In this document: piece by piece, positions 19,208 to 29,448 of the stretch
Layout of the letters: the number at the start of each line of letters is the position of its first letter
Numbering within the stretch: position 1 is the stretch's first letter
NCBI GenBank assembly: GCA_944358535.1
Contig: CALVRH010000014.1
Coordinates: 1 to 32,784, forward strand
Length of the DNA stretch: 32,784 bases
Direction of reading: 5' to 3'
Source: an uncultured Bacilli bacterium
GTDB lineage: Bacteria > Bacillota_I > Bacilli_A > RF39 > UBA660
Notes under the pieces: generated by a model
Seen by the model: the letters and a program-made list of their open reading frames with translations, nothing else
Database searches by the model: none
Told to the model about the DNA's origin: nothing
Program-made: the position numbers and the translations under genes

Positions 19208-20095
19208 TTATATTATTTTATTTACCTTATTTAATAATAACATACATACCTCACCATCACCAATTAAAGTAATAGAAAATGTTTTATAACCTATTCTATT
19301 TATACTTGCCCCGCAGTGATAAACAATATTACCATCAATTATAAAATATCTATCATGAAAGGAATTATCATAAATAACCTTTAAATTATGATATTGTTTA
19401 TTATATTTCAAAACATCTTGCTTTGTAAGTAAATTATTTGGTTTAGTTATAATAGTTACATTAACTTTTAATCTTTTAATTATATCTAAAATCGTATTAT
19501 CTGCATAACCATCTATTATAATTATCTCTTTTTTGGCCTCTTTAAATATTTCTTGTATTTTTGAATATGCATCATAAATTTGTCCATCAAAATATATTTC
19601 ATTAACCTTTTTCTTTTCTTCTAATTTATTAAATGTACTTTGTAATAGTTTTATTTGAGAGTCATGCTCAAGCACCATATTATTTATATATTTTTGTTCT
19701 ATCAAATTAGATGATATATATTTTCTCATAGCCACAAAAGCTCGCATAATAGTAATACTCATTTCAGTCGCAACTTTTGTTTTAATAATAGTAGCAAGCA
19801 TAGCCACACCTTGTTCGGTAAAAACATAAGGTAATTTCCTTATTCCGCCATAATCATTCCAACTTGAAGTCCCAATTTGGGACTTCAAGTTAAAAAACTC
19901 ATTTTTAGTTAATTGAAAATAAAAATCATCAGGAAATTTATCAACGTTTCTTTTTACAGCTTGATTAATAGTTTTTGTTCCATTAACGCACCCATAAAGT
20001 TTAGCTAAATCGCTATCTAACATCACCTGTACCCCACGAACTTCATAAATTAAATTTTCTATATTAATATAATCCTTATTAATTACCTCATTCAT
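19208..20095 (-). CDS. ORF6N-domain DNA-binding protein with PLD-like C-terminus (copy 1)
   Basis: A 295-residue protein. The N-terminal ORF6N domain (about residues 10-120) is a KilA-N-related DNA-binding module common in phages and mobile regions, with the landmarks IYEVRGVQVMLDSDLAKLYG, KFPDDFYFQLT, LKSQIGTSSW and FTEQGVAMLATI. A coiled linker follows, and then a C-terminal region resembling a single phospholipase-D-like half (IIIIDGYAD ... HDRYFIIDG ... YHCGASINRIG). A strong AAAGGAGG precedes the ATG. The second copy of the gene lies immediately upstream with an almost identical C-terminal half. The biological role is unknown; the family is often called an antirepressor-like phage protein. 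A palindrome lies inside the coding sequence at 19861-19891. Confidence 0.88.
   Translation of the reverse strand: MNEVINKDYINIENLIYEVRGVQVMLDSDLAKLYGCVNGTKTINQAVKRNVDKFPDDFYFQLTKNEFFNLKSQIGTSSWNDYGGIRKLPYVFTEQGVAMLATIIKTKVATEMSITIMRAFVAMRKYISSNLIEQKYINNMVLEHDSQIKLLQSTFNKLEEKKKVNEIYFDGQIYDAYSKIQEIFKEAKKEIIIIDGYADNTILDIIKRLKVNVTIITKPNNLLTKQDVLKYNKQYHNLKVIYDNSFHDRYFIIDGNIVYHCGASINRIGYKTFSITLIGDGEVCMLLLNKVNKII
19261..19670. repeat. Duplicated segment, copy 1 (pairs with 20362-20771)
   Basis: The 3' halves of the two ORF6N genes are nearly identical at the DNA level with a constant offset of 1101 bp and long stretches without any difference (for example about 19385-19650). The 5' halves, which encode the DNA-binding domain, differ clearly. 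This points to recent duplication or gene conversion limited to the 3' half. Confidence 0.93.
19861..19891. repeat. Perfect 31-bp palindrome inside ORF6N copy 1
   Basis: The arms aacttgaagtcccaa and ttgggacttcaagtt (15 bp each) surround one central base. It encodes the NLKSQIGTS part of the ORF6N domain. The second gene carries a related palindrome at the same codons. Confidence 0.97.
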
Positions 20096-20361
20096 AACTA
20101 AACCTCCTTTAGTATATCTTTATCATAAAGTAAACTAACAACGTTTTCATCTATCATTTTAACTTTAATTACCCACAAAATTATAAATATCCTTTCTAAC
20201 ATAAAATACATTATATTTTAATTATTGAAAACTATAACACCTCATTAATTATTATCACTCTTAAAAATTAAAGAAAAAGTATAAAAATGTAACTTATTTT
20301 TAGCTTTATTATATTATTTTATTCACTCTACTTGATAATAATTTACACATATATTCATCAC

Positions 20362-20771
20362 CAATTAAAGTAATAGAAAATGTTTTATAACCTATTCTAT
20401 TTATACTTGCCCCGCAGTGATAAACAGTTTTGCCATCTAATATAAAATATCTATCATGAAAGGAATTATCATAAATAACCTTTAAATTATAATATTGTTT
20501 ATTATATTTCAAAACATCTTGCTTTGTAAGTAAATTATTTGGTTTAGTTATAATAGTTACATTAACTTTTAATCTTTTAATTATATCTAAAATCGTATTA
20601 TCTGCATAACCATCTATTATAATTATCTCTTTTTTGGCCTCTTTAAATATTTCTTGTATTTTTGAATATGCATCATAAATTTGTCCATCAAAATATATTT
20701 CATTAACCTTTTTCTTTTCTTCTAATTTATTAAATGTACTTTGTAATAGTTTAATTTGAGAATCATGCTCA
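20362..20771. repeat. Duplicated segment, copy 2 (pairs with 19261-19670)
   Basis: This is the partner of the near-identical segment described at 19261-19670, in the same orientation. The 213-bp gap between the two genes (20096-20308) is AT-rich and I see no gene, RNA or clear terminator in it. Confidence 0.93.
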
Positions 20772-20951
20772 ATCACCATGTTGTTGATATATTTTTGCTC
20801 AAGCAAATTAGAAGAAATATATTTTCTCATAGCCACAAAAGCATCCATAATAGCAATGCTTACTTTTGTAGCTACATCAGTTTTTAATATTGTGGCAAGC
20901 ATTGCCACACCTTGCTCTGTAAATACTGTATGCCCTTTTCTGGAACCACCC

Positions 20952-20978
20952 TTTGAAGTCGCAATTTGCGACTTCAAA
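20952..20978. repeat. Perfect 27-bp palindrome inside ORF6N copy 2
   Basis: The arms tttgaagtcgcaa and ttgcgacttcaaa surround one central base. Compared with copy 1, the inner C-G pair has become G-C on both arms, so the palindrome is kept by a compensating change. Confidence 0.97.
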
Positions 20979-28098: not shown

Positions 28099-28386
28099 TC
28101 ATTCCAATATGTTTTTAACAATATATAAATATTTTTTATAATTGTTATTATCAAAATTTTTACTTCTAATAATTTCTAAGTTATCAATAACTTTATAACT
28201 AATTTGATAAATATCTAATAATTTAAAACTATTTGTAAATTTAATTAATTTTAATATTTCTTTATCATAACTAAAACTATAATATTTTTCTTTTCTTTTA
28301 ATAATTATTAAATCTCTTTTGTGTAATTTTTTTAAAAATACATATCTATTATACGCACTTAACTTAACACCACCACCTTTATTGTT
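28099..28386 (-). pseudogene. Open frame of ~95 codons without a normal start codon, possible gene remnant
   Basis: On the minus strand a frame runs without stop from 28386 to the TGA at 28099-28101 and would encode a basic, Tyr/Lys/Ile-rich peptide (containing KLSAYNRYVFLKKL and KYLYIVKNILE). No ATG, GTG or TTG lies in frame near the beginning, although AAAGGTGGTG resembles a ribosome site. I recognise no family. In such AT-rich DNA a chance frame is possible. The whole gap 27931-28476 otherwise holds only the hrcA control region and stable hairpins. Confidence 0.3.
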
Positions 28387-28435
28387 TTATCCTTTACATT
28401 TTGTTTACAGTTTGTTTGTCTTGAAATTTGGGCCG

Positions 28436-28472
28436 GTCCCCGTAAGACTTCGCCTTACAGGGGACGCTTCGC
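28436..28472. other. GC-rich hairpins just downstream of the surface-protein gene
   Basis: An 11-bp stem with one bulge (28436-28446 with 28454-28465) carries a GC-GAA-GT loop on the minus strand, and a second mini-hairpin GCGAAGC lies at 28466-28472. They start 4 nt after the stop codon. No T-tract follows, so this is not an ordinary terminator. The local GC content is far above the surroundings. Confidence 0.75.
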
Positions 28473-28476
28473 TGTT

Positions 28477-29415
28477 CTATCCAAGTTGAAATGGATTTCC
28501 TTGACTTCCATCTCCTCCTGTAATTTGTGTTTCGGATGTGAGATATAAGACTGGGCGGACCACAATGGAGTTGGTCACGTGGCGGTTCGCATTGACAAAG
28601 CCAGTACTGAGCAAATAGGCCGCAAAATAACTACTACCGGCATTAGGAGCCTGTAACCATTCATCTACTCTACTAAATAAGTAATCACTGTTTTTACAAC
28701 TACTATTATAATTTCCAAGTGCGGTTGATAAACAGCTACTTCCGGCCGCATACCCATAATCACTTGGATACATTAATCCTATATATTGTGTTGTACTTGC
28801 TGGGTTTCCACTATATACTTGACTGCTATCTCTTTCGGCATTATAGTAGCCACTTGCTGTTAGTGTTTGATAATTATCTTGAGTTGCTCCTCCTAGATAA
28901 TATGTCTCTTCTGATATCATATTTTTATATGTTCCATCTATACTATTATAATATTCTCCATTTAAATAACTTTTTAATGATGCATTATTCCAATTATTGT
29001 TATTAGTTGAATTCCATCGCATACTACCAATACTTTCATTTCTTATTATTTTTATTTTTCCATCTATTACTCCTAGTATTCTCCATAACTCATTATTAAA
29101 ATTTACATAATTATTTGGATTTTTTCCATAATATCTTATATCTCCATGTTCATCTTTATACAGTTCATCTGGATTACTTGGTAACAAATCTGTTATTGTT
29201 TCTCCACCAGTCTTAGGTGGAAAACATACTCCATATAGTTCATCTATCGCATCTTGAACATTGGTTGATTGTAAACCACTCACGCTATTATCATATGTTG
29301 TTTGATTAGATGGAAAATATGTCGCTGCTATTACGCTTATACTTAAGGTTGTTATTAATCCTAATATAAATCCTATTAAATATTTCTTTGAAAATTCTTT
29401 TATTTTTTCTTTCAT
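28477..29415 (-). CDS. Membrane-anchored surface protein, DUF6273-like
   Basis: A 312-residue protein starting at the ATG at 29415 (GGAGAGG upstream). A basic N-terminus and one hydrophobic helix (about residues 10-32, YLIGFILGLITTLSISVIAA) form a signal anchor. A segment VSGLQSTNVQDAIDELYG follows, then a domain with NFNNELWRILGVIDGKIKIIRNE, NNASLKSYLNGEYYNSI, GLMYPSDYGYAAGSSC and the C-terminal VVRPVLYLTS, as in DUF6273-type extracellular proteins of gut Firmicutes. The function is unknown. Codons 28540-28623 are strikingly G/C-ending (19 of 28), unlike the rest of the gene, with many NNC codons just before the RPVL motif. Its promoter region contains 18 consecutive Ts. Confidence 0.82.
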   Translation of the reverse strand: MKEKIKEFSKKYLIGFILGLITTLSISVIAATYFPSNQTTYDNSVSGLQSTNVQDAIDELYGVCFPPKTGGETITDLLPSNPDELYKDEHGDIRYYGKNPNNYVNFNNELWRILGVIDGKIKIIRNESIGSMRWNSTNNNNWNNASLKSYLNGEYYNSIDGTYKNMISEETYYLGGATQDNYQTLTASGYYNAERDSSQVYSGNPASTTQYIGLMYPSDYGYAAGSSCLSTALGNYNSSCKNSDYLFSRVDEWLQAPNAGSSYFAAYLLSTGFVNANRHVTNSIVVRPVLYLTSETQITGGDGSQGNPFQLG

Positions 29416-29448
29416 GACTACCTCTCCTATCTTATCCATATTCAAGAT

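Follow-up and report, generated by a model that had tools for sequence, protein, structure and literature searches.

Why does one gene in a 32,784-nt stretch of DNA from an uncultured Bacilli bacterium (hereafter the window) end in a short block of codons unlike those that precede it? Across this gene, which is read on the minus strand, 19% of the codons end in G or C, versus 19 of 28 at positions 28540–28623, the top-scoring 28-codon stretch of the gene. An earlier note on this DNA had drawn attention to the block, which was said to lie near the C-terminus, ahead of VRPVLYL, and to contain the codons GTC, AAC, CGC, CAC, ACC, AAC, TCC, and GTC; a recount confirms the figure, the position and every codon named. 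Diversity-generating retroelements (DGRs) are bacterial systems that copy a fixed template into surface-protein genes, with the adenines being randomised, and the gene had been proposed to be a target of such an element, with reverse transcriptase (RT) and template located elsewhere. We consider it very likely (with a probability of about 0.95) that the window does hold a remote DGR target. The gene and its variable region (VR) are the following.

28477–29415, minus strand: DGR target gene, encoding a probably membrane-anchored DUF6273 protein; ATG at 29415, with an upstream TTG at 29445 as a possible start.
28551–28651, minus strand: VR, homologous to the 101-bp template (TR) at C21:9033–9133.

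C21 is, like C7, C22, C31, C33, C34, and C42, a contig of the genome to which the window belongs (G000). The TR is a 101-bp non-coding repeat that lies about 0.9 kb upstream of a DGR-type RT gene adjoined by an Avd gene, which bears out the proposal that template and enzyme lie elsewhere, and the differences between this repeat and the window VR are, as had been predicted, mainly at adenines. The region singled out in the earlier note was the right one, with the true template-homologous stretch being 28551–28651 rather than 28540–28623 (the block) or 28540–28660 (the expected repeat). The TR contains 30 A in 101 bases; 14 of the 18 differences that separate it from the window VR are at these template adenines and four are elsewhere (P = 4e-6). 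The target gene of the C21 cassette carries a VR identical to that of the window, and thus the same 14 adenine and four other differences, and three more VRs of the genome are related to this TR: those at C7:50885 (14 adenine differences and one other), on C22 (15 and three) and at C34:12021 (15 and none), with P values for the adenine bias ranging from 4e-6 to 5e-10 over these VRs. The suggestion that the codon bias itself stems from mutated AAC codons is only partly borne out: it applies to CGC and CAC, while GCG, GCC, GTG, ACC, AAC, TCC, and GTC are unchanged template codons.

Several of the non-adenine differences may go back to the template itself. An older TR allele with GTCAAT in place of the present GTTGGT would remove three of the four that the window VR shows and two of the three in C22, leaving the window VR with 14 adenine differences and one other relative to this inferred allele, and the TR of a relative, G163, reads GTCAAC at the same place. 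An older template allele is thus the probable source of the window VR. In the sister species G173, the TR is identical over 101 bp and the VR of the cassette target is a different one, with 13 adenine and two other differences.

The cassette on C21 consists, in this order, of the target gene (DUF6273), a hairpin, an ORF of about 94 codons, the TR, a MutS-like ORF, Avd, and RT. The RT has 351 residues, with SQ in motif 4 (LPIGGLSSQ) and YMDD, and its best match by far in the PDB (E = 1.2e-23, 87 bits versus 40 for the next) is 8ub7, whose RT we take to be the Bordetella BPP-1 DGR enzyme. The genome contains two further RVT_1 matches: the one on C42 was set aside as an unrelated group II intron protein, and the one on C33 is a shortened relative. 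Three libraries agree on the family of the Avd gene, with matches to PF22296 bAvd (E 7e-11, above the cut-off), phrog_3206, and NCBIfam NF033474 DivGenRetAVD (E 1e-12, but at 48 bits below its own cut-off of 80). The MutS-like ORF gives a weak match to MutS_I; MutS-like (MSL, PF01624) accessory proteins are known from DGRs (PMC10053308).

The gene had been labelled DUF6273-like from the start, and its match to Pfam DUF6273 (PF19789) is indeed above the curated cut-off (E 4.5e-6, 27.1 bits versus 23.5). Two parts of its product are relevant here.

29344–29415, minus strand: N-terminal hydrophobic helix MKEKIKEFSKKYLIGFILGLITTLSISVIAA, likely a membrane anchor or signal peptide.
28480–29127, minus strand: predicted C-type-lectin-fold domain (AlphaFold2 model), with the VR near its end.

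The hydrophobic helix suggests that the protein is surface-located or secreted, and this stretch is also a helix, at low confidence, in the AlphaFold2 model, which was built with 36 homologs from the genus. Mean pLDDT is 74.6 over the protein and mostly above 80 for residues 107–322. The top structural match of the model, at Z 17.3, is 9qa6, a Thomasclavelia IgA peptidase matched in its N-terminal part, and many C-type lectins are found among the other matches (Z 4–6.5). The C-type-lectin fold is the usual scaffold of DGR targets, and the VR, corresponding to residues 265–299 of 322, occupies the 3′ end of a gene predicted to encode such a fold. DUF6273 has already been published as a lectin-type DGR target for phages (PMC11792537, PMC10743442); remote targets and DUF6273 targets are both established kinds.

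Immediately 3′ of the stop codon, where the earlier note had placed it, a GC-rich hairpin was found; this hairpin and the other features at or beyond the end of the VR are listed below.

28436–28465, minus strand: GC-rich hairpin 3′ of the gene, 11–12 bp with one bulged base.
28551–28560, minus strand: GC-rich invariant 3′ VR end GTCCGCCCAG, common to the TR and all TR1-type VRs of the window genome.
28099–28359, minus strand: open frame of 86 codons without an in-frame ATG, GTG, or TTG start; its homolog in the cassettes is the ORF that separates hairpin and TR.
28175–29001, minus strand: 827-bp tract, 100% identical to C21:9253–10079, by gene conversion or assembly collapse.

The hairpin is also seen in six genomes of the genus (G156, G159, G163, G173, G174, and G176), either within cassettes or following targets; in the seven distinct sequences all of its pairs are kept, and two of the pairs show compensatory changes. 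It is present behind the window and C21 targets and absent in this form behind those of C7, C22, and C34, which may rely on other signals or be used with lower efficiency. In BPP-1, a hairpin of this type is needed for homing, and by analogy with that system the GTCCGCCCAG end is likely to be the initiation-of-mutagenic-homing site (PMC3240598). In G173, the cassette target gene and its hairpin are set apart by non-homologous sequence of about 1.5 kb (contig C13, 2694–4199, minus strand). The ORF between hairpin and TR (C21:9153–9449; window 28099–28359) is conserved in every cassette seen; despite having no ATG, GTG, or TTG in frame, it changes in excess at third positions, like coding sequence, and is therefore probably coding, or once was. 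Considered as a possible Avd, it gave no match in family searches. A Shine-Dalgarno-like AAAGGTGGTG lies ahead of it, and in some species there is an ATG in another frame, which would need a frameshift at TTTTTAAAAAAA.

Could the same pattern have arisen without a retroelement, through ordinary fast evolution or gene conversion in a large paralogous family of surface proteins? Such a family exists (the genome has 51 DUF6273-type matches, and the frames of several are broken), but 58 of the 66 differences that the four distinct VRs show relative to a separate, non-coding template beside an RT are at adenines of that template, and no adenine bias is seen in five DUF6273 paralogs that lack this VR (P 0.14–0.91). 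The 15:0 VR on C34 is enough to refute this explanation, and we hold it to be very improbable. Even less credible is a recent acquisition of the G/C-rich block from a foreign source: third codon positions in the block are unlike those of the rest of the gene, but the TR and the VRs of five loci have the same composition, the gene around the block is native to the genus, and the TR match by itself refutes the idea.

While the status of the window site as a DGR target is secure, it is doubtful that diversification is going on there now. As the C21 cassette target has an identical VR, the window site is, besides a remote target, a duplicate or gene-conversion copy of that target; the two share the 827-bp tract, beyond which their flanks are clearly diverged. 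The Avd frame on C21 is interrupted by an in-frame TAA where G173 has CAA (the frame is intact in sister genomes), and this stop codon, together with a VR equal to that of the cassette within the tract, casts doubt on current activity: the site may be silent, or may last have been rewritten by gene conversion. The site could then be a relic, i.e., a duplicated target at which diversification has ceased owing to the loss of Avd from the cassette, so that its VR moves only by gene conversion between paralogs, a reading that would also suit the older-allele signature of the window VR and to which we give somewhat less than an even chance. Against it, C21 has an intact RT and an intact TR, the stop in Avd could reflect an error of the assembly or one specific to the strain, and the C34 VR, with 15 adenine and no other changes relative to the present TR, implies that homing from this TR was recent. 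It is unlikely, albeit far from negligible, that two near-identical targets were collapsed during assembly and that the true window VR is different. The fragmentation of the assembly (55 contigs), the exact equality over 827 bp despite differing flanks, and the fact that contigs of sister genomes also end at genes of this kind all favor such an artefact, but unique flanks continue on both sides in both contigs and gene conversion would give the same picture.

How a remote target such as the window gene would be written can be proposed from known DGRs. The TR RNA from C21 would be reverse-transcribed by the DGR enzyme with the help of Avd, with errors put at template adenines, chiefly those of AAC and AAT codons. 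DUF6273 genes would then have the homologous 101 bp of their 3′ ends replaced in trans by the cDNA, with the GC-rich VR end and the hairpin behind the gene serving as guides. The resulting protein, membrane-anchored or secreted and with a C-type-lectin fold, would have a randomised binding face, presumably allowing variation in what the cell surface binds.

Several known systems resemble this one in part. In Treponema denticola and cyanobacteria, too, lectin-fold genes that lie far from the cassette with RT and TR carry a VR, and these remote targets include dispersed paralogs and relic targets from an older TR (PMC4891356, PMC7517822); in contrast, the targets described here are DUF6273 proteins of uncultured Bacilli, in a genus with two DGRs, and the window copy carries along its hairpin and the next ORF. 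The DUF6273 domain, its C-type-lectin fold and a VR within it are shared with Faecalibacterium prophages (PMC11792537) and phage tentaclins (PMC10743442). Those are phage proteins, whereas the window gene belongs to a chromosomal multigene family, has an N-terminal membrane helix and lies beside the housekeeping genes hrcA, dnaK, and ligA. The BPP-1 DGR (PMC3240598) likewise combines RT and Avd, adenine-specific changes, a GC-rich VR end, and a hairpin behind the target, but the window hairpin is larger (11–12 bp, with a bulge), has another loop and is separated from the VR by about 85 bp, compared with 4–34 bp in BPP-1; in addition, the cassette contains an extra MutS-like gene and an extra ORF, and the target is on another contig. 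Lastly, Thiohalocapsa PB-PSB1 has several DGR classes, incomplete loci and 15 targets that are likely served in trans (PMC10907252); these are conflict-system sensors, in contrast to the small surface-type proteins of the 1.3-Mb genome considered here.

A second DGR appears to have operated in the same family. About ten further DUF6273 paralogs of the window genome share another VR (WWTLSPNSG...AVRPAITL), from whose alignment a second template (TR2) was inferred by placing A at the variable bases. In the relative G161 this TR2 was found upstream of an RT, and 32 of the 33 predicted adenines are present in it; it is this recovered template that argues for a second DGR. Testing the second VR family without gaps against the G161 TR2 gives weak results because the templates of the species differ at non-adenines and some genes have indels. 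Two copies of TR2 occur in G161 (on its contigs C1 and C2), one of them in a target–hairpin–TR–MutS-like array. In the window genome, only the first part of TR2 is left (at C31:1063–1155, the first 24 bases equal the inferred TR2 exactly and the rest is overwritten) and the C33 RT, which matches the second DGR, is truncated; the second DGR thus looks decayed there, as judged from an assembly that is 90.5% complete. The C31 remnant is preceded by a target gene and by a palindromic hairpin, CAAACTCCTATAGGAGTTTG. The exact inferred TR2 was not found in viral contigs.

A tentative and rather doubtful extension of these data is that the two DGRs serve a dispersed set of lectin-like surface genes, at least five from one template and at least six, probably about ten, from the other, among about 50 paralogs in 1.3 Mb, with fresh VRs being spread by gene conversion and the cassette acting as the sequence source of an antigen-like family. 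About one third of the 51 DUF6273-type paralogs have an in-frame stop, which suggests that many copies are silent or decaying. RT relatives are present in 32 of the 44 genomes of the genus sample, so that the system is common in the lineage, and the named records whose RTs are nearly identical to that of C21 are metagenome-assembled genomes of uncultured Bacilli. No relatives of the target protein were found in viral contigs, which leaves a phage origin of the window target unsupported; two viral contigs matched the VR1 pattern, and neither contains a TR1-like 101-bp match. At the position orthologous to the window site, the contig of the sister genome ends and another relative has a different paralog. 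The targets on C34 and on contig C38 of G173, whose 3′ flanks are alike, were considered as orthologs and left out as strain evidence since their wider flanks differ.

A literature search, with subscription journals mostly outside its reach, returned no description of DGRs in this bacterial group, and chromosomal DUF6273 families of uncultured Bacilli can now join the cellular DGR targets. Should the dispersed repertoire still be active, these small-genome bacteria would possess a large self-mutating set of surface lectins. The codon composition of a single gene can reveal a remote DGR target, of the kind that surveys confined to the surroundings of RTs miss, a limit stated in PMC8144416. Elsewhere in the window, a tandem repeat at 3–389 encodes APVAETLNTGAMPT units in an ORF adjoining recA, and two neighboring ORFs at 19208–20977 have near-identical C-terminal halves and related, antirepressor-like N-terminal domains.
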